37,515 bases of DNA from a virus. Shown here in pieces: positions 11,690 through 34,746 of this stretch (positions within the stretch are counted from its first letter, which is position 1; each line of letters starts with the position of its first letter). The stretch covers positions 1 to 37,515 of IMG/VR virus record IMGVR_UViG_3300025132_000113. One strand, given 5' to 3'. Position numbers and translations under genes: made by a program. Below the pieces are notes generated by a model. That model was not told where the DNA came from, did not search any database, and was given only the letters and a program-made list of their open reading frames with translations.

Positions 11690-12135
11690 TACGCTTTCCT
11701 CCAGAAGTGGCTAAATAATTGAGCGCTTGCACCCATTGGCTTTGGCACATCAACAGTGAAACCCAAATGCTTTAACCATCGAATAGTTATTTGATTAGAG
11801 TGCATTGCCCAGTTATGTAAGAAGTCATTGCCATCATCAATTAATCCATCAACCCATTTCCGACCTCCACGAATGAATTGCCTTCGATGACTAGAAGTTG
11901 CAAATAAATCATCTGTTCCTAATAACCAAATTAAAGATTCATTTACACCACATATCCCTACTGGCAATCCATTATCTCCATCTATGCAATGACAAATTTC
12001 ACTTTCCTTCCAGCTTCCAATCACAGCTTCTTTGCCAGTAACACCATGACTATAATGCACTTCCAATTCATCCTGCTTTCTTACATTATTACTTATGTAC
12101 TCCACTCTTGCAGGAGTCGCCACAGCCCACTTCAT
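11689..12135 (-). CDS. gp13-like protein, GNAT-fold family (148 aa)
   Basis: By position, between tail tubular B and gp14-like, and by size (T7 gp13 is 138 aa), this is the gp13-type protein needed for virion morphogenesis, a family related in fold to GNAT acetyltransferases (DUF2833). The sequence shows ICHCIDGDNGLPVGICGVN followed by WLLGTDDL and a C-terminal HSNQITIRWLKHLGF block, typical of GNAT-like proteins. A catalytic acyltransferase activity is not claimed. Its ATG overlaps the stop of tail tubular B (ATGA), and its stop overlaps the gp14-like start. Confidence 0.75.
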   Translation of the reverse strand: MKWAVATPARVEYISNNVRKQDELEVHYSHGVTGKEAVIGSWKESEICHCIDGDNGLPVGICGVNESLIWLLGTDDLFATSSHRRQFIRGGRKWVDGLIDDGNDFLHNWAMHSNQITIRWLKHLGFTVDVPKPMGASAQLFSHFWRKA

Positions 12136-20560: not shown

Positions 20561-21307
20561 TCAGTTTATCGGTGGATTCCAAATTAGGGGAGTATTAGTT
20601 TTTAAGTTGTATTCTCCTTGCCTTAATATTCGAGCGCATCTTGCTTGACTTAAAGCAAATCTTTCATCAAATCCTGCCTTCTCATAAGCAGCCAAAACGC
20701 TGTGCCACATATCATTTTCATTTTTACATTTAGCAAGTATTTTACTAGCGCCTACTTTCCCACATTTTTTTAAGCCAGGATAAGAATCTGTTGTATCTCC
20801 AGATAAAACTTGTGTAAAGAAAGCATGATCGGCTGCATATTTTGATACTTCTATCATTTCTCCACCCCTGAGATGCAGTCCAGGGATAGTCAACATGTCC
20901 TTATCTTCAGAGACAATTACATCATTTGGACAATACAAAACACCCATAACATCATCACCTTCTACACCTTCTAAAGCAGCAGAAGGAAACTTCTCTTGCA
21001 GTTTCTTTTTAAACTCTGCGTAGCCTGCTGGAATTGATCTTAATTTCTTTTTTCGATCACTTTTGTAGGTATCCCAAACGTCATAACGAAAGCTTTTACC
21101 CTGACCCCAACAAAGAACTAACCCATACTCAGGTAATAGATCATTAATTATGTGTAGCTGGTCAGTAAAGTTAGCTAACGCCTCTTGATAATCAATGGTG
21201 TAATGCCATGTATCAGGGTGATTTTCTGGATCCCATAATGTATAATTTTCTGTTGCAAATGCAGCTTTAATAGAGAATAATTCTGCATCAATTAATGCCA
21301 TCTTCAT
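20561..21307 (-). CDS. FEN-type 5'-3' exonuclease, T7 gp6-like (248 aa)
   Basis: Flap-endonuclease superfamily nuclease that would remove RNA primers or resect DNA ends. Visible metal-binding motifs: LEGVEGDDVMGVL (Glu116, Asp118, Asp119), IVSEDKDMLTIPG (Asp135, Asp137), and VLSGDTTDSYPGLKKCGKVGASKIL (Asp171, Asp174, followed by the helix-hairpin-helix loop). The first motif (MALIDAELFSIKAAFA) carries Asp7. About 50 residues shorter than T7 gp6 (300 aa). In T7 this enzyme works with the phage replisome; no phage polymerase is visible here, so it may act with host enzymes or in recombination. Last gene of the DNA metabolism block. Confidence 0.9.
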   Translation of the reverse strand: MKMALIDAELFSIKAAFATENYTLWDPENHPDTWHYTIDYQEALANFTDQLHIINDLLPEYGLVLCWGQGKSFRYDVWDTYKSDRKKKLRSIPAGYAEFKKKLQEKFPSAALEGVEGDDVMGVLYCPNDVIVSEDKDMLTIPGLHLRGGEMIEVSKYAADHAFFTQVLSGDTTDSYPGLKKCGKVGASKILAKCKNENDMWHSVLAAYEKAGFDERFALSQARCARILRQGEYNLKTNTPLIWNPPIN

Positions 21308-21527: not shown

Positions 21528-21708
21528 TAAATGTTTTTAGATCTCTAAAGTTAAAGTCTTGAAATTCTGGATGTTCTTTGAAAAAATTATCTGTTGGCAA
21601 ATGCGCTTGAGTATTCCCCTTATTGAATTGAGCGATAGACCATTTCCCACTGAGAAGCCCACGTTCTAAAATTCTTATTAACTGGGAATCGTCGATTAAC
21701 TTGTCCAT
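21487..21708 (-). CDS. Small protein of unknown function (73 aa)
   Basis: Polar protein with LIDDSQLIRILERGLLSGKWSIAQFN and a C-terminal HPEFQDFNFRDLKTFNEQHGKNN. The ATG at 21708 overlaps the stop of the upstream 148-aa gene by one base, a clean coupling that supports it. No domain recognised. Confidence 0.7.
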   Translation of the reverse strand: MDKLIDDSQLIRILERGLLSGKWSIAQFNKGNTQAHLPTDNFFKEHPEFQDFNFRDLKTFNEQHGKNNSSYLS

Positions 21709-22154
21709 CAGTTCCCTCCTTTGAGCGCTCGGTTAGACCTAAAAGTTTTGTAAGCCTGTTTGTTTTCTTTATCTGGTGGTTCATAATTGGATACTGGCTT
21801 AGGTGGCATTAAGGCCAATTGATTTGGGACAGGTTGACACATTTGAGGAAGAGTTTCTTTAAATCCCCAACTTCTATTAGGCTTTCCGTTCTCAACCCTG
21901 TAAAGAAATGTCATTAACTCATCCCAAGTGGGATAGCGCAGGAAATCTTTATTAGTTGTTGTCTGAACAAACTGCTCAGAAGCCCATAAGAATTGTTCTT
22001 GACTTACCTCTGGGTAGGCTTGAGAAAAAGAGACAAACTTCAGTTGAGATATTTGAGCCGACCACCGATCAGCTTCCTTTATTCTTAAGTGTGCAGCTAT
22101 CATCTCGGATGCTGCTAAGAATGTTTGGATAGTTAGCTTGCTTTGTTTTGCCAT
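21708..22154 (-). CDS. Unknown protein in the replication block (148 aa)
   Basis: Starts MAKQSKLTIQTFLAASEMIAAHLRIKEADRWSAQISQL and has a helical, tryptophan-containing middle (QEQFLWASEQFVQ, YPTWDELMTFLYRV), followed by a proline-rich linker (PVPNQLALMPPKPVSNYEPP) and a basic end. The layout, a helical N-domain then a disordered basic tail, resembles small phage replication or helicase-loader type proteins. I cannot show that and record it only as a possibility worth testing because no replicase is encoded nearby. It overlaps the upstream gene by 22 bases. Confidence 0.7.
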   Translation of the reverse strand: MAKQSKLTIQTFLAASEMIAAHLRIKEADRWSAQISQLKFVSFSQAYPEVSQEQFLWASEQFVQTTTNKDFLRYPTWDELMTFLYRVENGKPNRSWGFKETLPQMCQPVPNQLALMPPKPVSNYEPPDKENKQAYKTFRSNRALKGGN

Positions 22155-22699
22155 TGCCTTACTGCTTCATTCATGGCTGAATCTTTAGGAGCTAGACCTC
22201 CTTCTGGATTAGGTGTTGGCTCTGGTGCATGATTTAAGTAGCTATATTTTAAAGCTTGCCAACCATGTTCAATGCCAGCCTTAGCCAATTCTTCTTGTAA
22301 GTAAGAAGGCAATCCATATAACCGTTGGACACTCAAAGTAAAAGCATCCTTTGACCAAACAGCTTTGCTCTTTTGCTTAAGCCATCTGCTTTCATTCCAC
22401 CATTTACAGATCAATGGTCGAACATCTATAGCGATGCCATCTAAAACTTCAGCGTCTTCCTTGGCTACATATTTTTCACCTGAAGGAAGTGCTGAGACTC
22501 TTGTTCTTTTAACTTTGTTTGGTTGAATTGGACTTACTTCACAGACTCCGAAAGGCTCACCAACTGATACGCAAACACGTTCCATAGTTGAGAACTTAAA
22601 ACTACAGTCCAAGCACATCCTGACCCTCATATCACACTCTGCGTGTTTACGAGTTTCCATTACTTTGGTATTTGTTTTTCTACATTTTGGGCATTGCAT
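22133..22699 (-). CDS. NrdR-like zinc-ribbon protein (188 aa)
   Basis: The N-terminus has a four-cysteine zinc ribbon, MQCPKCRKTNTKVMETRKHAE then VRMCLDCSFKFSTME (CPKC at 3-6, CLDC about 29-32), closely resembling the ribbon of the NrdR repressor. The NrdR ATP-cone is absent. The rest (residues 60-188) is unfamiliar, with CKWWNESRWLKQKSKAVWSKDAFTLSVQRLYGLP. It may bind DNA or RNA in replication or transcription. One-base overlap with the RusA gene upstream (TAATG) and 22-base overlap with the gene downstream. Confidence 0.7.
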   Translation of the reverse strand: MQCPKCRKTNTKVMETRKHAECDMRVRMCLDCSFKFSTMERVCVSVGEPFGVCEVSPIQPNKVKRTRVSALPSGEKYVAKEDAEVLDGIAIDVRPLICKWWNESRWLKQKSKAVWSKDAFTLSVQRLYGLPSYLQEELAKAGIEHGWQALKYSYLNHAPEPTPNPEGGLAPKDSAMNEAVRQWQNKAS

Positions 22700-23073
22700 T
22701 AGTAAGTTACCTGTAAATGAATGTACGAGTCTTTAGGTTTAGTTTTACTCCATATCCAAACGCCATGAGGCATGATACTTACTCGGTCATCAGACCAAAT
22801 AATACCTTTGCCAGCATCTAAGACAGCGCCACATAAGTTATCGCCGTCATGTCTTGCAGGGCCACCGAAATGGAGGGTAACTTGTTTAACCCTTTCTAAG
22901 GGAGGTGCAGTCCACCACTCCCTCATTTGTGCCTTTAAATCTGCCTGCCATTGTTTATATTCTTTGGACATATATGGAGGCATAGGCTTACCATTTTTCA
23001 CACCAAAGCGAGGTCTTTCTTTACTCTTTAAAGGAACATAAAAAGTAAATTCTGCGACACTATCTTTAATCAA
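22699..23073 (-). CDS. rusA: RusA-type Holliday junction resolvase (124 aa)
   Basis: Dimeric endonuclease resolving four-way junctions. E. coli RusA is 120 aa. Motifs: FYVPLKSKERPRFGVKNGKP near the N-terminus (residues about 11-30), then ARHDGDNLCGAVLDAGKGIIWSDDRV with the acidic set Asp76, Asp78, Asn79, Asp86, Asp95, Asp96, matching the family's D-x-D-N...LD...W-x-DD layout. T7 uses gp3 (endonuclease I) instead, so a RusA family enzyme is a replacement of that function. Overlaps SSB by 4 bases. Confidence 0.92.
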   Translation of the reverse strand: MIKDSVAEFTFYVPLKSKERPRFGVKNGKPMPPYMSKEYKQWQADLKAQMREWWTAPPLERVKQVTLHFGGPARHDGDNLCGAVLDAGKGIIWSDDRVSIMPHGVWIWSKTKPKDSYIHLQVTY

Positions 23074-23702
23074 AATGGAATGTCCTCTTGATTAACTTTG
23101 TTGAGTTGTTCCTGAACATTGGAAGAGTCAACATTCAATGAAGATGGTGTGCCTACTGCTTCAAAGTCTGTTTCTTTATCAGCAAATTCTTCATCAACGC
23201 TAAAGATGTTTGCGTCAGGATCATATTCAACGTGCTTAAGAACTTGAACCCCTTTAAGAAACAAGCCAACACCACATCCACCTTGATCGTAAGGAAAAAT
23301 AGTAAAGGAAATTCTAATGATGCTGCCATTGCCAATAAGCTTTTCTTGATCCCAAGGTCTTAGGTTTGCATCAACTACTTTTGGTGCGCCTAATGGTTCT
23401 CCATTACGACTTAGTTCTTTTCTTTTAAATTTGAATTTGATATAGCCAGTTAGCTGTAATTCTCCTTTGTCATCAGTAAAAGATTCAGGCTCATAAGGAA
23501 GTCCATGTGCTGCTGGCTTCTTTTTGCCATGCGCTTCTGTAAAAGCATTATCAATTGATTTTTGTAGATGCTTGCAGTCCTCTGGCTTGAAGCGCTGACC
23601 GATTGTGTATTCTCTTTGACCGTTAAATTGATTGAGCCTTGGTTCACCCAATACGCAAGCAAAGACTGATTCTCCTTTTGGAGTAGTCATTGACTGTGGC
23701 AT
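23070..23702 (-). CDS. Single-stranded DNA-binding protein, gp2.5/DUF2815-like (210 aa)
   Basis: Probable phage SSB. The body has beta-rich segments with basic and aromatic residues (ELQLTGYIKFKFKRKE, NGSIIRISFTIFPYDQGGCGVGLFLKGVQVLKHV), typical of the T7 gp2.5/DUF2815 group. The C-terminus is acidic and ends QEDIPF, the classic SSB tail used to recruit partners. First gene of the DNA metabolism block; its 60-bp upstream gap contains both a motif 1 half-dyad (23708-23721) and an exact CTCCTA/TAGGAG operator (23737-23752). The ATG at 23702 lies 5 bases from motif 1. Confidence 0.85.
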   Translation of the reverse strand: MPQSMTTPKGESVFACVLGEPRLNQFNGQREYTIGQRFKPEDCKHLQKSIDNAFTEAHGKKKPAAHGLPYEPESFTDDKGELQLTGYIKFKFKRKELSRNGEPLGAPKVVDANLRPWDQEKLIGNGSIIRISFTIFPYDQGGCGVGLFLKGVQVLKHVEYDPDANIFSVDEEFADKETDFEAVGTPSSLNVDSSNVQEQLNKVNQEDIPF

Positions 23703-26416: not shown

Positions 26417-26432
26417 ATTGTAAAAACCACTT

Positions 26433-26518
26433 GCCAGCGTGGTGGAATTGGTAGACACACAGGACTTAAAATCCTGAGATGCGCAAGCATCGTACGAGTT
26501 CAAGTCTCGTCGCTGGTA
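26433..26518 (+). tRNA. tRNA-Leu, anticodon UAA
   Basis: An 86-base gene with a complete cloverleaf: acceptor GCCAGCG (26433-26439) pairs with CGCTGGT (26511-26517, one G-U) and discriminator A is at 26518. The anticodon stem-loop is CAGGA-CTTAAAA-TCCTG, reading UAA, which decodes leucine codon UUA. The long variable arm (ATGCGCAAGCAT) is typical of tRNA-Leu, and the T arm ACGAG-TTCAAGT-CTCGT is present. CCA is not encoded and there is no intron, although many cyanobacterial tRNA-Leu(UAA) genes carry a group I intron. The integrase stop codon begins at the very next base. It probably doubles as the attachment site (next entry). Confidence 0.93.
26475..26518. other. Candidate phage attachment site (attP) in the 3' half of tRNA-Leu
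   Basis: Integrases of this type recombine in the 3' half of tRNA genes and lie next to attP. Here the integrase stop touches the tRNA 3' end. P-SSP7 is reported to carry a 42-bp match to its host's tRNA-Leu downstream of its integrase. The exact crossover cannot be set without a host genome; the limits given cover the 3' end from the anticodon stem onwards. Confidence 0.5.
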
Positions 26519-27526
26519 TTAGTTCTCAAGAGCATCAATACAATCACTCAAGGCTATTGTATTTGTATGTAGATAAACTTGCACCGCCGCAAGGCTTTTC
26601 CATCCTCCAAATTGTTTGATTTTTAATAATTGAACACCTTTCTTTGCCAATTTTGTGGCGCAAGTATGCCTAGTGCAATGCCAAGTCAATCGCTTGTCAT
26701 CTTCGATGCCCATTTCTCTTTTAACTTCTTTAATTAATCTTCTTAAAATGTTGTAAGTAATCTCATCTCTCCATACATAATCATCCTTTCTCTTTCCTTC
26801 TATCCAAGGCTTAATCGCTTTATACGCTCTATTTGTCATAGGAACAGTTCGAGGTTCTCCATTCTTTGATTTATAGATAAGCACTTCTTTAGTTTTTAAA
26901 TTTACATGTTTAACTTTTACCCTTAAAGATTCTCCCCACCTCGTACACATATCTAATGACCATTTGAATAGATCAACTAACTGTATGTAACCGCAATCAG
27001 TCCAGTATTGAATAAAAAAAGCTTCTTCATCTTCTTCAAAACATCTCTTAGGTCTTTTTACATCTTTTAAAAATGGTGGTAATACTGGATATTCTTTTAA
27101 ATGACCAAAGGTAATGGCAGCGCCAATCATTCCTTTTAAATAAGTTTGTTTCTTATTAACTGTTGTCGGTTGCTTGTCCTCAGATAATTGATCTTCTCTG
27201 AAATCCTGCCATTGGTTTGCATCAATATCTTTTAATAAAAAATCCTCGCCAAAGAATCTAATAATTTGATTGCTTCCATGCATACAAGCATCGGATGAAG
27301 CAAGGTCTTTCCATACTGTTCTCTCTGCTAACTTCTGCGCCTCACCTAAAGTTATATGCAGTTTTACTTGTCGTGTTTGTTTAGCTTTTTTCTTAAATAA
27401 CTCATTAAATTCTTTTTGCTTTGCAAGTGCATCTTGCTTTGTCTTGCAACTTGTTTGCCTTCTAGCGCCATTGATAGTGACATCAACGATATAGCCCTTC
27501 TGGGCTTTGCGGATAGTTCCTAGCAT
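26519..27526 (-). CDS. int: Tyrosine site-specific recombinase (integrase, 335 aa)
   Basis: Catalyses phage integration and excision. Catalytic residues appear in order: Arg196 (DMCTRWGES), Lys219 (IYKSKNGEPRTVPM), His283 and Arg286 (TWHCTRHTC), Trp309 (FGGWKS) and Tyr318 (VYLHTNT). The N-terminal half contains the arm-binding region (residues 1-55) and the core-binding SAM-like domain (about 80-150). The gene is minus strand with its end against tRNA-Leu. Its leader carries the repeat GGTTGGTGGTTGTTG (27537-27551), shared with the ArdC leader. Complete, with no sign of decay. Confidence 0.95.
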   Translation of the reverse strand: MLGTIRKAQKGYIVDVTINGARRQTSCKTKQDALAKQKEFNELFKKKAKQTRQVKLHITLGEAQKLAERTVWKDLASSDACMHGSNQIIRFFGEDFLLKDIDANQWQDFREDQLSEDKQPTTVNKKQTYLKGMIGAAITFGHLKEYPVLPPFLKDVKRPKRCFEEDEEAFFIQYWTDCGYIQLVDLFKWSLDMCTRWGESLRVKVKHVNLKTKEVLIYKSKNGEPRTVPMTNRAYKAIKPWIEGKRKDDYVWRDEITYNILRRLIKEVKREMGIEDDKRLTWHCTRHTCATKLAKKGVQLLKIKQFGGWKSLAAVQVYLHTNTIALSDCIDALEN

Positions 27527-27552: not shown

Positions 27553-27870
27553 TTAAATTTTGTCGAGCTGGCGTTTTAATGCTTTGCCTTTAGGTTTTAG
27601 CCAAACACAAAAGCGTCGGCCTTCTTCTGGGTCAGGTTGAACTTCTAATAATTCAAAGCCTTTATATCCTTTTCTATGAGTTTCGCCTAAAGCATTAATA
27701 GTTCTGCTCACTGTTGAATTAGTCAGGTTTAATGCCTCTTCTATCTCTGAATAGGTGCATCCCTCGTTCTGACAAACAAAGATAAACACCTGAACATGAT
27801 GTAGCGGCATCCCTGTCGGATTAATAGTGGCAAAGGCTTCAAGACCTTTCTCCAATTCAAATAAATCCAT
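27553..27870 (-). CDS. MarR-like winged-helix regulator (105 aa)
   Basis: Probable DNA-binding repressor or activator of the lysis/integration switch. The core (residues 22-100) is a winged-helix domain: MPLHHVQVFIFVCQNEGCTYSEIEEALNLTNSTVSRTINALGE is helix 1, then the helix-turn-helix with recognition helix NSTVSRTINAL, then a beta wing around LLEVQPDPEEGRRFCVWL and a final helix. It resembles the 115-aa protein upstream, and the two look like diverged paralogues. Its own leader contains an exact motif 2 dyad (27883-27898) and a motif 1 dyad (27901-27914), suggesting autoregulation. AGGAGG, part of motif 2, is 12 bases from the ATG. Confidence 0.8.
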   Translation of the reverse strand: MDLFELEKGLEAFATINPTGMPLHHVQVFIFVCQNEGCTYSEIEEALNLTNSTVSRTINALGETHRKGYKGFELLEVQPDPEEGRRFCVWLKPKGKALKRQLDKI

Positions 27871-31167: not shown

Positions 31168-31362
31168 TGTTCTTATTATTATCACTAATGACCACCGATG
31201 GCAAGTAAAGGGATTAGGCAAACTCTCTATCTGTAACAAATGTCACACCCTTTACCTCTACTCTCCACCCCTTCACACTTCACCACGTCCACCCTTCACA
31301 CCCCTTTTAGTTGCACACCAGATTGATAGTCTTGTGGTTATTCAGTCAGTCACTAGATAGAT

Positions 31363-31455
31363 ATACCCCACCCCACCCCATAGCTATTTTTTTATTGATT
31401 CTTTTGATCTTTTTTTTATTTTTCTATGATTTTTTAAAGGGGGCTATGGGGGTAT
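31363..31455. repeat. Large inverted repeat with T-rich loop, candidate origin
   Basis: Left arm ATACCCC (31363-31369) and CCCCATAGC (31376-31384); right arm GCTATGGGGGTAT (31443-31455), which matches the left arm if 5-6 of the repeated C/A bases loop out. The 58-base loop is almost pure T/A on plus. Easily melted DNA framed by GC-rich arms, near a RepL-like gene, is origin-like, but this is inference. Confidence 0.4.
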
Positions 31456-31516
31456 GAGCGCCAAGCGCTGTAGAGGTACCCACCTAAAAATGCGAGGTAA
31501 AAAATGGAAAAAAAAA

Positions 31517-31545
31517 GACCCAGGGCATTATGCGAACCCTGAGTC
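31517..31545. terminator. Bidirectional intrinsic terminator
   Basis: Nine-bp stem GACCCAGGG (31517-31525) / CCCTGAGTC (31537-31545) with one weak pair and an 11-base loop. It is flanked by an A-run (31508-31516, a T-run on minus) and a T-run on plus (31549-31554), so it can stop transcription both ways. It would insulate the divergent ArdC and RepL-like units. Confidence 0.75.
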
Positions 31546-31692
31546 AGATTTTTTGTGTGTGAGGAGTTTAAGTTGTATTGTTTTTTCTGCGTTAGTAGGT
31601 TGGGGCGTACCTACGTTTTTATTGTTACCAGTATAGAGATCATAGTGCAAGTAGGAGTAGATAATTGTGGGAGTAGTTGAAATGCAGGTGTG

Positions 31693-31722
31693 TTGATGTA
31701 TGATTCACTTTACCAATATAAG
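31693..31722 (+). promoter_or_regulatory. Sigma70-like promoter of the plus arm
   Basis: TTGATG (31693-31698), an 18-base spacer, then TATAAG (31717-31722). It would give a leader of about 85 bases with a hairpin (CTGACTGG ... CCAATCAG) and the motif 2 dyad. A host-read promoter here would let the RepL-like gene be expressed before phage polymerase exists. Confidence 0.45.
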
Positions 31723-31768
31723 ATCCCCTCCCCTGACTGGGCCGTTTCGCAAACACCAATCAGGAGTG

Positions 31769-31784
31769 ACCCTAGGGTTAGGGG
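31769..31784. promoter_or_regulatory. Motif 2 operator-like dyad (variant) before the RepL-like gene
   Basis: ACCCTA-GGGT-TAGGGG keeps the CCTA-N4-TAGG core of the 23737 and 27883 sites. Positioned in the leader, between the putative promoter and the ribosome site AAGGAGG. Confidence 0.5.
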
Positions 31785-31813
31785 ACTCGTCAGAAGGCAA
31801 GGAGGTCTGACTA

Positions 31814-32188
31814 ATGCAGTCTAATGGATTCGAGAATTTTGTTATGCTTCACCAAGAAGAATTTGAGAATGTATTTGGGTTAATAAGTGAGAGGCGATTG
31901 GAGTTAAGGGATATGGCTGTGTATGTGGGATTAATCAGTGAAATGAACTGGAGGACGGGGAGAGTTAGGTTAACTGCTAGGGCATTAGCGAGGAAATTGA
32001 ATATCAAAGATTCTGTATGTGTTATGTCGTTGGGAAGGTTAAAGAAGGAGTTGTTAGTTGTGAGGGTGAGGGAAAAAAGGAGTGGGGATGTTTATTTTTT
32101 ATTGAATCCACATTTTGCGAGTGTGGGAGGAGTAAAGAGGCGAGGATATTTACAAAGTCAATTTGAGGAGGCAATAAACGATTTGTGA
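31814..32188 (+). CDS. RepL-like winged-helix protein (124 aa)
   Basis: First gene of the plus arm. The ATG at 31814 has a strong AAGGAGG site 8 bases upstream. The middle is a winged helix: MAVYVGLISEMNWRTGRVRLTARALARKLNIKDSVCVMSLGRLKKELLVVRV, where a helix-turn-helix (LTARALARKLNI, then SVCVMSLGRLKKE) precedes a two-strand wing ending YFLLNPHFASVGG. That final 'yflNPh' block is reminiscent of RepL-type plasmid replication proteins. A transcription regulator is an equal alternative. Guanine-rich codon use (GGG, AGG, GTG, GAG) is visibly unlike the left arm. Overlaps the next gene by 4 bases (GTGA). Confidence 0.7.
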   Translation: MQSNGFENFVMLHQEEFENVFGLISERRLELRDMAVYVGLISEMNWRTGRVRLTARALARKLNIKDSVCVMSLGRLKKELLVVRVREKRSGDVYFLLNPHFASVGGVKRRGYLQSQFEEAINDL

Positions 32189-32391
32189 AATATAGTGAGT
32201 ATCAGAAACTAAGGATTGCACCCATGTATGTATCAAATGAAGAAAGGATGAGGTTAGGTATTCAGAGGTATGGGAGTGATGTACCTGTTGCTGAATATGA
32301 GAAAGCGAAAGCAGCAAAGGATGGAGTTGTTACGAAAGCAGTTGAAGAAGTTAAAGAGGAAGTAGAGGCCGATAGTGTGGATGAGGGTTAG
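32185..32391 (+). CDS. Small acidic protein with GTG start (68 aa), unknown
   Basis: GTG at 32185 overlaps the upstream stop (GTGA). N-terminal half contains YQKLRIAPMYVSNEERMRLGIQRYG; the C-terminal half is acidic (EEVKEEVEADSVDEG). Probably co-translated with the RepL-like protein. An opposite-strand frame is a shadow. Not recognised. Confidence 0.65.
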   Translation: MKYSEYQKLRIAPMYVSNEERMRLGIQRYGSDVPVAEYEKAKAAKDGVVTKAVEEVKEEVEADSVDEG

Positions 32392-32439
32392 AATGAAAAT
32401 GCTTTTCCAGGTGGTACTGGGAAGCCTGCCAGCCATTTT

Positions 32440-32454
32440 GGTTGGTGGTTGTTG
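32440..32454. repeat. Motif 3 repeat in the plus arm
   Basis: GGTTGGTGGTTGTTG, identical to the integrase leader copy (18 bases match including the preceding TTT). Here it lies between plus-strand genes, not directly before a minus-strand start. Confidence 0.55.
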
Positions 32455-32460
32455 GCAAAG

Positions 32461-32492
32461 CCTCTCTGTCACTAAAAAGATAGGGAGGTTTT
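32461..32492 (+). terminator. Probable intrinsic terminator or attenuator before the terminase unit
   Basis: CCTCTCT (32461-32467) pairs with AGGGAGG (32482-32488, one G-U) and is followed by TTTTG. Only a few bases separate it from the ATG of the 47-aa gene, so it may control read-through into the terminase. Confidence 0.55.
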
Positions 32493-32496
32493 GTTT

Positions 32497-32640
32497 ATGA
32501 ATTGCTGGCATTGCAAGACAGAATTAATTTGGGGAAGTGATTCTAATTGCGAACATTTAGAAGAATTTGATTTTATTAGTTTTTTAAGTTGTCCTAAATG
32601 TGGATCAGATGTTGAGGTTTACCACAAGAAAGAAAAATGA
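32497..32640 (+). CDS. Zinc-ribbon micro-protein (47 aa), coupled to terminase
   Basis: MNCWHCKTELIWGSD at the start and LSCPKCGSDVEVYHKK at the end give CxxC...CxxC (Cys3, Cys6, Cys32, Cys35), a rubredoxin-type zinc ribbon. Very similar small proteins are, from memory, widespread in marine cyanophages. The TGA overlaps the terminase ATG (ATGA), a coupling that suggests a role with packaging or DNA binding. Function unknown. Confidence 0.85.
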   Translation: MNCWHCKTELIWGSDSNCEHLEEFDFISFLSCPKCGSDVEVYHKKEK

Positions 32641-34445
32641 ATTGGGAACCATTACCAGAAGAATTGTGGCCTTTTAAAAATTTCCTTTGTTACTTGTTAA
32701 GGGAATTGGGGTTGGCTGATACTCCGACGTTGAGGCAATTATCTGTAGCGGAATGGTTAGAGAACGGGCCAGATCGTTGCATTACAACTGCGTATCGTGG
32801 ATTGGGTAAATCATTTGAAAGTGGTGCTTATGCTTTGTGGCGTTTAAGGCATGATCCATTTACTGAAAAGATCTTGATTCCTGCTGCAACTGCTGAGAAA
32901 GCAGAGGAGGTAGCAACATTTATGGCTAGATGTATTCGAGATGTTGATATTTTGAGATGCTTGGAACCAAGACCAGATGGAAGATCAAGTTTTAAAGCAT
33001 TTGATGTTGGGCCTGCTGTTATTGATCAAAGTCCAAGTGTTAGAACGGTTGGGATATTAAGTCCAAGTTTGACTGGAAAGCGTTGTACTTTGGCGCTGCC
33101 TGATGACATTGAGACTTTAAATAATTCAATTACACCGTTAAAGCAAGAAAGATTAGCGCAGGCGGTTACGGAACTAGAGGCAATTATTAAACCAGATGAT
33201 CCTGGGTTTGATCCGAATGGCAAAAGGGATTACACGATGGGAGGAAAGAAACAAATATTCCCAAGGCAAATTAGATACTTAGGAACGCCCCACCTTGAAA
33301 GTTCACTTTATCTAAAGCTAGTGAGGGAGAGGAGTTACGCTATTCGTTTTTGGCCTGCACGTTTTCCTGATCCTAAAGATTCTGAGCAATGGGATTGTTA
33401 TGAAGGATTCTTAGCACCTGATATTGAATCAACTGTTAAAGAGAATCCAGAAGTAGCTGGTAATCCAACTGATCCTGAACGTTTTGGGCATGAGGAATTA
33501 TTAAAGCGTGAAACAAGGATGACAAGATCCGCAGTTCAATTGCAGTTTCAGTTGAATTGTCGTTTAAGTACTCTTGATCGTTATCCAATCCGATTAAGTG
33601 ATTTGATCGTGATGGATTTAGATGGGAAGGCTTTACCTGAAATAGCTATATGGGGCAATAGCCCCGATTTAAGGATTCAGAATTTGATTTGTGTTGGAAT
33701 GGGTGCTGATCGTTATTACCACCGTCCTGCGGCTGTTAACGGGTGGATTCCGACGAAAGATGAGTGGCGTTGTGTTCTAGCAATTGACCCATCAGGCCGA
33801 GGCAGCGACGAATTAGCTTGGGCCTGCATAGCAGAACTCAATGGTAATTTCTTTGTTTTAGAAAGTGGTGGTACGACTAGAGGATATGAAGTTGAGGTTT
33901 TACAGCTATTAGCAAAAGTTGCAAAGAAATGGAATGTAACTCAAGTCGTTGCTGAATCAAATATGGGTGATGGCATGTTTACAGCTTTATTGCAGCCAGT
34001 AATGAATAAAATTTATCCTGTTGGAATCGAAGAAGTTAGAGTCAGCATCCAAAAGGAAAGAAGAATTGTTGATACTCTTGCACCGTTAATTCAACAACAT
34101 CGAATGATTGTCAGCACAGATGTAATCAAAAAGGATTATGCAACGGCTGAACGTGATCCAGAATCAGGGCATCAAAGATCTTTGCTTTATGGCATGTCAA
34201 GAATAACGACGGATCGTGGGAGCTTATTATTCGACGATAAAATTGATGCTCTTAGCTTAGGAATTAAGTTCTTTACGGAAGCTGCTGCACAAGATCAGGT
34301 CAGACAAAAGAGAGAGCGTCAGGAAGAGTTAGATGATCTAATTAGAGATGCTTGGTTTGATGAAACTGGTGCAGGTTTAGATGATTTAGCATGTGGATTT
34401 AAACCACAACAAAGATCAGGTGCTTACGGTGGTATCAAGCGTTAG
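32637..34445 (+). CDS. Terminase large subunit, gp19-like (602 aa)
   Basis: ATP-driven DNA packaging motor and nuclease; T7 gp19 is 586 aa. Walker A is TTAYRGLGKSFES with Lys58 and Ser59; Walker B is TLALPDDIET with Asp156-Asp157. The C-terminal RNase H-like nuclease begins VLAIDPSGRGSDE with Asp384 and continues with VVAESNMGDG (second acidic residue) and LLFDDKIDALSLG. Complete. It lies on the opposite strand from all capsid genes, next to a zinc-ribbon micro-protein, and ends inside the 3' end of the small terminase gene. Confidence 0.95.
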   Translation: MNWEPLPEELWPFKNFLCYLLRELGLADTPTLRQLSVAEWLENGPDRCITTAYRGLGKSFESGAYALWRLRHDPFTEKILIPAATAEKAEEVATFMARCIRDVDILRCLEPRPDGRSSFKAFDVGPAVIDQSPSVRTVGILSPSLTGKRCTLALPDDIETLNNSITPLKQERLAQAVTELEAIIKPDDPGFDPNGKRDYTMGGKKQIFPRQIRYLGTPHLESSLYLKLVRERSYAIRFWPARFPDPKDSEQWDCYEGFLAPDIESTVKENPEVAGNPTDPERFGHEELLKRETRMTRSAVQLQFQLNCRLSTLDRYPIRLSDLIVMDLDGKALPEIAIWGNSPDLRIQNLICVGMGADRYYHRPAAVNGWIPTKDEWRCVLAIDPSGRGSDELAWACIAELNGNFFVLESGGTTRGYEVEVLQLLAKVAKKWNVTQVVAESNMGDGMFTALLQPVMNKIYPVGIEEVRVSIQKERRIVDTLAPLIQQHRMIVSTDVIKKDYATAERDPESGHQRSLLYGMSRITTDRGSLLFDDKIDALSLGIKFFTEAAAQDQVRQKRERQEELDDLIRDAWFDETGAGLDDLACGFKPQQRSGAYGGIKR

Positions 34446-34707
34446 CAATATTATTCTCTAACTTTTTCCTTACTGTAGAGAAATCTAATTTCTTAGCCAT
34501 TTGTGCTTTTAATTTTTCACTATCTGCTTCTGCAAGGTTGGCAGTTATATTGTTTTGCTTAAGTAATTGAGCAGCTAATCTAAGGTCATCATTTGATACA
34601 GGAAGAGGGTTTCCATCTTTGTCGTAACTACCTTTTTTTATACGATCAATAACTGTTTCTATCGTCAAAGTTTGAAGTTCAGCTAAATTTTCAGCGTCAT
34701 TTTTCAT
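34435..34707 (-). CDS. Terminase small subunit, gp18-like (90 aa)
   Basis: DNA-recognition partner of the packaging motor. Length matches T7 gp18 (89 aa). The motif DGNPLPVSNDDLRLAAQLLKQNNITANL is the signature of podoviral small terminases. The start is taken at ATG 34707 (MKNDAEN); a TTG at 34728 would extend it by seven residues. It faces the large subunit and overlaps it by 11 bases, whereas in T7 the two lie in the same operon. Confidence 0.8.
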   Translation of the reverse strand: MKNDAENLAELQTLTIETVIDRIKKGSYDKDGNPLPVSNDDLRLAAQLLKQNNITANLAEADSEKLKAQMAKKLDFSTVRKKLENNIANA

Positions 34708-34746
34708 AACTTGATTGTTACTTAACAAATAGATACTAAACTAAGT

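Follow-up and report, generated by a model that had tools for sequence, protein, structure and literature searches.

The DNA analyzed here, which we call the window, is the complete 37.5-kb (37,515-nucleotide) virus record IMGVR_UViG_3300025132_000113, from a T7-like cyanopodovirus of the S-SRP02/uvMED group G9 lineage. Its large terminase (TerL) is 80.6% identical to that of Synechococcus phage S-SRP02 and 63% identical to that of uvMED S38-C3, the order of its head and tail genes is that of S-SRP02, and its gene content includes a T7-like RNA polymerase, an integrase, a single-stranded DNA-binding protein (SSB), RusA, and a 5'-3' exonuclease. Early genes occupy the minus strand and run leftwards from ~31.1 kb. 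On the plus strand, an operon starting at 31814 encodes a 124-aa protein, a 68-aa protein, a small zinc-ribbon ORF, and TerL, and synteny checks place the 124-aa gene first in this TerL-side operon, opposite the divergent early genes. The features at this locus are as follows.

31205..31813, no strand assigned: divergent intergenic region with a C-to-G skew flip, proposed origin region
31376..31451, no strand assigned: inverted repeat, arms CCCCATAGC (31376-31384) and GCTATGGGG (31443-31451), 58-nt T-rich loop
31457..31469, no strand assigned: short palindrome AGCGC-CAA-GCGCT (fold z -3.3)
31508..31554, minus strand: terminator-like hairpin
31625..31660, no strand assigned: most conserved intergenic block (CAGTATAGAGATCATAGTGCA), possible promoter or binding site
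31677..31704, plus strand: sigma-70-like site TTGAAA-16-TATGAT, 10/12 matching positions
31814..32188, plus strand: RepL-like winged-helix protein, 124 aa, proposed replication initiator
32185..32391, plus strand: 68-aa ORF, operon partner, overlapping the repL-like stop codon
32637..34445, plus strand: large terminase TerL
34435..34728, minus strand: small terminase TerS (PF11123; profile match at 34483-34692)

Homologs of the 124-aa ORF occur in dozens of IMG/VR contigs as well as in two phage records. The S-SRP02 record annotates its copy as hypothetical and has a similar reading frame at the position of the 68-aa ORF. A hairpin GTCAG..CTGAC (31786-31813, plus strand) surrounds the AGGAGG ribosome-binding site before the repL-like start and recurs at the matching place in S-SRP02; it may serve translational control. 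Before terL, a three-helix RNA element (32395-32502, plus strand) is conserved; relatives have it immediately 5' of terL, as in L007 (9273-9379, minus strand). Two-sided changes occur in 20 of its 34 pairs, covariation is 0.452 against 0.264 in shuffles (0/500), and its covariance model detects it in further relatives with E values down to 1.5e-21. The covariation is strong; with no match in Rfam, the element is new, possibly a terL leader regulator, a packaging signal, or a terminator. Elsewhere in the window, a tRNA-Leu(TAA)-like sequence (26432-26519, plus strand) abuts the integrase gene and is probably an attP copied from the host; in S31-C1, a tRNA feature overlaps the integrase. The relative L019 contains a Phage_DGR RNA of Rfam (11734-11860, minus strand; 70 bits) and may carry a diversity-generating retroelement.

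Relationship of the 124-aa protein to RepL

The original prediction described a winged-helix protein with a RepL-like NPH ending. Both features are borne out: the AF2 model is a winged helix (pLDDT 86.8), and the NPH motif is present, with its NP conserved. Across 13 members, N98 and P99 are invariant and G105 nearly so, giving the RepL signature N-P-x5-G; N, P, and G are published conserved residues of RepL (PMC5779722). The signature G is missing from S38-C3 and from some of the more distant members.

The suggested relationship to RepL itself held up better than expected in profile comparisons, in Pfam matches of orthologs, and in the N-P-G signature. A profile of the family aligned by hhalign to seven plasmid RepL proteins with a probability of 97.8% over 108 columns. 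As controls, the family scored 9% against the phage MarR proteins of the clade, and RepL scored 33% against MarR (40 columns). The plasmid proteins (from Streptomyces, Lactiplantibacillus, Selenomonas, Arsenophonus, Acetobacter, Tunicatimonas, and Staphylococcus epidermidis) came from a search with a staphylococcal RepL sequence, which 134 records match at an identity of at least 99%. Their profile produced 57 matches in 22,788 phage ORFs, all of them to the 124-aa family, and matched 0 of 60 MarR genes. The alignment to RepL spans residues 2 to 120 of the window protein, C-terminal signature included.

Single-family searches were less uniform. Pfam RepL (PF05732) matches 9 of 13 family members, with a best E value of 4.6e-5; orthologs G003, G004, and G006 lie above the curated cut-off and S-SRP02 lies below it. 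The window's own protein falls below the cut-off and gives no PF05732 match, which counts against its being an initiator. Scans with this single sequence returned only a weak MarR_2 (PF12802) match at residues 53-88, at 15.3 bits against a curated cut-off of 27. It also counts against an initiator that the PDB fold neighbors of the model are winged helices of a generic kind, for the most part transcription regulators, MarR-type ones included; with no RepL entry among the matches listed, this fold search was uninformative about RepL. Foldseek matches to viral proteins include phage proteins annotated as RepL. For nearest cellular relatives there is just a 3.8-kb Cyanobium MAG contig, itself probably phage, and a tblastn search of plasmids with the S-SRP02 member of the family found no match.

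Synteny had raised the idea that the 124-aa protein is TerS. This was ruled out, as the sole PF11123 match in the window lies in a separate gene and the 124-aa protein is unmatched. A separate T7-type TerS is present in all nine records searched (the window and eight relatives); TerS being a gene of its own, the 124-aa protein is not TerS.

The divergent intergenic region

In the GC-skew analysis, the sharpest skew jump of the window fell at 31406, a position within the inverted-repeat loop, and cumulative skew reached its minimum 390 bases before the RepL-like start codon. Conservation of the flip extends to 37 relatives, in whose upstream regions mean skew passes from -0.18 ± 0.05 to +0.30 ± 0.03. 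The combination that the original prediction had named as adverse to it, a regulator match only and no skew change, was not what was found. The flip is compatible with an origin and also with divergent transcription. It coincides with the divergent gene orientation, and the global skew minimum of S-SRP02 lies elsewhere, both of which count against an origin; S38-C3 agrees only after detrending. The region is a candidate origin.

The large inverted repeat with GC arms and a 58-base T-rich loop is present as originally described. Within it lies the 60-nt stretch with the highest AT content in the intergenic region, at the 99.7th percentile for the window as a whole. As a single strand it folds with a z of -3.1 (0/200 shuffles as good), and when its own band was block-shuffled with composition preserved, 0/60 shuffles reached its score; dinucleotide shuffling of the entire intergenic region yields a GC-arm repeat of at least 9 in 5% of cases. 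The role assigned to it, that of an origin element, fared less well among relatives, where the repeat is not generally conserved. Only 6 of 37 members reached p<=0.05 (two nulls), and we rejected it as a clade-wide origin element. No shared iterons were seen, no DnaA boxes were found by a strict cyanobacterial pattern, and the leader contained no tRNA or Rfam RNA at gathering score.

Three elements mostly persist among close relatives, some with compensating changes as read by eye: the T-rich stretch flanked by C- and G-tracts, the minus-strand hairpin of the terminator, and the small palindrome. The palindrome, which the original prediction had listed, is one of these, its hairpin being kept in L013 with a compensating change in an alignment read by eye. 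The terminator had been described as bidirectional; the minus-strand half of that claim is strong (z -5.7) and the plus-strand half is weak (z -2.0). In L014, the hairpin and the minus-strand T-run are kept and the plus-strand T-run is lost, which hints that the repL leader is crossed by leftward, antisense transcription. A host-type promoter had also been noted. The sigma-70-like site exists, but promoter-like sites in the region are no more frequent than chance (3 found against 4.7 ± 2.7 expected). The conserved block at 31625 has a partial near-copy 85 bp downstream, at 31710, and no repeat elsewhere in the window. It was set aside as a phage promoter motif, as it is not repeated before other phage genes.

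Codon use in the RepL-like gene had been read as foreign. The unusual codons are real (AGG at 89 per 1000, third-position G skew +0.77), but a foreign origin is not supported. Third-position G skew is highest in this gene and its 68-aa neighbor (+0.81), drops to +0.40 in TerL, as it does in ArdC on the opposite side, and is mostly lower further out. Because the neighboring gene, the leader, and close relatives share the G skew, the odd codons reflect strand asymmetry, and we rejected horizontal transfer as their cause.

A proposed replication system without a phage polymerase

The original prediction had remarked on a phage with no replicase seen, and DNA_pol_A is indeed absent from the window and its relatives: none of 25 records of the lineage and relatives matched, with control phage 9515-10a positive (26 records searched). 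A DnaB-type helicase (DnaB_C) is present in S37-C6, S31-C1, P-SCSP1u, 9515-10a, and G005. The RepL-like gene occurs in 20 of the 26 records, of which 19 are without the helicase; one has both, four have the helicase only, and two have neither. The two genes are therefore nearly exclusive (Fisher p 0.005, from counts that are not independent of phylogeny). The one record with both, G005, counts against an initiator role. Genes of the window that lie away from this locus, and the DnaN-like gene of a relative, are as follows.

20561..21307, minus strand: 5'-3' exonuclease, no polymerase domain
21708..22154, minus strand: 148-aa protein, proposed helicase loader, G39P-like fold
22133..22699, minus strand: NrdR-type zinc-ribbon protein, paired with the 148-aa protein
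22699..23073, minus strand: RusA-type Holliday junction resolvase
23070..23702, minus strand: single-stranded DNA-binding protein (weak Enc34/T7-type matches)
27553-27870: MarR gene, separate from the 124-aa gene
L007 10903-11604, plus strand: DnaN-like sliding-clamp gene (also in L067, L059, L058, L070, and L018)

RepL-bearing phages of this lineage carry the NrdR-type zinc-ribbon protein and the 148-aa protein, the latter taking the place of the primase-helicase in the 19 records that lack it. A tentative guess that the 148-aa protein resembles a helicase loader preceded the structure search. Its AF2 model (pLDDT 88.3) superposes on SPP1 G39P with Z 5.3 and 2.5 Å over 67/67 residues, a Z that alone is middling; the Foldseek hit to G39P is weak (E 3.5), and the G39P sequence profile PF11417 matched 0 of 8 records. 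On this modeled likeness, the 148-aa protein is put forward as a weak candidate for a helicase loader. Nearly all relatives have the NrdR-type gene beside it; S31-C1 instead has an NrdR-like ORF before its primase gene. About nine relatives, S-SRP02 among them, encode a DnaN-like protein (motifs TDGHR and LLMPVQIR) on the opposite side of the intergenic region from the RepL-like gene. The S-SRP02 copy matches the PHROG processivity factor (2e-8) and, weakly, Pfam. The window has an ArdC-type anti-restriction gene at this position. In S-SRP02, which is cultured, all of the proposed parts are present, the DnaN-like gene included.

Taken together, we favor the reading, at a probability of somewhat under 60%, in which the 124-aa protein serves as a RepL-type replication initiator of divergent sequence, with its origin in the divergent intergenic region, using host DnaB and Pol III. 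Its observed basis is RepL homology, a conserved position and skew flip, and a phage with neither DNA polymerase nor helicase; from these we infer that the protein acts as an initiator, where the origin lies, that DNA is melted and not nicked, that a loader takes part, and that the host replisome is used. The protein would bind within 31205-31813, the site of the T-rich inverted repeat and skew flip, and would open the DNA there by melting and not by nicking. The 148-aa loader would then bring in host DnaB helicase, host Pol III would copy the phage genome, and in some relatives the phage DnaN-like clamp may help. A broader and more tentative proposal, to which we give somewhat less than even odds, is that a whole T7-like cyanophage lineage swapped its T7 replisome, DNA polymerase and primase-helicase alike, for a plasmid-style set of RepL and an origin beside terL, together with the G39P-like loader, the NrdR-type protein, and in some members a DnaN-like clamp, all relying on host DnaB and Pol III.

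Several other explanations bear on the same evidence. The protein might be a RepL-derived or MarR-like regulator acting on the divergent promoters, governing early genes versus the terL operon or lysogeny, with no role in replication. Pfam MarR_2 matches 10 of 13 family members (best 9.6e-5), MarR-type regulators are among the fold neighbors, and the gene sits between divergent operons of an integrase-bearing phage. The MarR match is, however, confined to the helix-turn-helix, whereas RepL aligns over nearly the whole protein; the phage already has a separate MarR gene, and the RepL-like gene co-occurs with loss of the primase-helicase. A precedent is SEN1990, which is annotated as RepL and yet is not required for replication of its island (PMC10655114), so that a RepL annotation need not mean replication; SEN1990 is without the NP residues that the 124-aa family keeps. 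On balance, we regard a purely regulatory role as unlikely, although it is the main rival.

Nicking of one strand in rolling-circle fashion, as proposed for the pSN2 family and with the inverted repeat as nick site, is improbable. Staphylococcal RepL plasmids are so classed (PMC5703833), and a GC-arm inverted repeat would suit a double-strand origin. Against this, the conserved columns include neither an invariant Tyr nor a His-x-His metal site, the repeat is not generally conserved, and work on the RepL plasmid pBAS2 turned up no obvious nick site and no single-stranded DNA (PMC5779722). We think it very improbable that the region is instead a concatemer junction or packaging end, with skew and hairpins reflecting that and the 124-aa protein serving as TerS or a packaging cofactor. 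Such a role would fit a region directly preceding TerL, and the ends of the P-SCSP1u record fall between TerL and the early genes, in a stretch comparable to this one, but the separate TerS in every record searched argues otherwise. Finally, transcripts made by the phage RNA polymerase from the intergenic region could prime replication in T7 style, with the RepL-like protein as an accessory. The T7-like RNA polymerase and the conserved block with its near-copy are in keeping with this, but the block makes only a putative phage promoter, being unrepeated before other phage genes, and the phage has no DNA polymerase or primase-helicase; this explanation is highly improbable.

The preferred reading, that of a RepL-type initiator using host machinery, bears on an acknowledged problem. 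How abundant cyanopodoviruses without DNA polymerase replicate is an open question, for which host Pol I, host Pol III, and another polymerase of unknown kind have been hypothesized (PMC9860041). The present analysis proposes an initiator, a candidate loader, and a region for the origin in another polymerase-less T7-like lineage, which makes the host Pol III hypothesis directly testable. If the reading is true, the phage would copy its genome plasmid-style on host machinery, and that would answer the question for these viruses. Phage-borne RepL is already known from annotation; a putative RepL with loader and clamp candidates in a polymerase-less T7-like lineage was not found in the literature searched.

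Among known systems, the RepL family (PF05732; pSN2, pIM13, and pBAS2) shares the winged-helix core with the 124-aa protein, the two aligning over near full length and both having the N-P-x5-G motif followed by a YL/HL..F helix. The window protein differs in missing ~30 N-terminal residues and in having an RRLELRD insertion and a longer wing; it is <20% identical to plasmid RepL and is housed in a T7-like phage, before terL. Pseudoalteromonas phage HS1 likewise bears a RepL (YP_010660201) in a record without an annotated DNA polymerase. Its RepL gene lies directly 5' of a primase-helicase gene pair, which favors a replication role for phage RepL; HS1 keeps a primase-helicase module, its gene content is not T7-like, and its RepL is 17% identical to the window protein. 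The MPP-C cyanopodoviruses P-SCSP1u and P-SCSP2 are, like the window, T7-like cyanophages without DNA polymerase (PMC9860041), but in P-SCSP1u, unlike in the window, a RepL-like gene is absent and the primase-helicase of T7 type is retained. In SPP1 G38P-G39P-G40P and lambda O-P, an origin binder and a small loader recruit a DnaB-type helicase, as proposed here. The likeness to SPP1 lies in the resemblance of the 148-aa model to the G39P domain, with no G39P sequence match; in contrast to SPP1 and lambda, the initiator of the window comes from another family and there is no phage helicase. Phage P1 RepL, which shares the name and is compared here by description, is a lytic initiator whose AT-rich origin, oriL, lies at its gene (PMC9948254).
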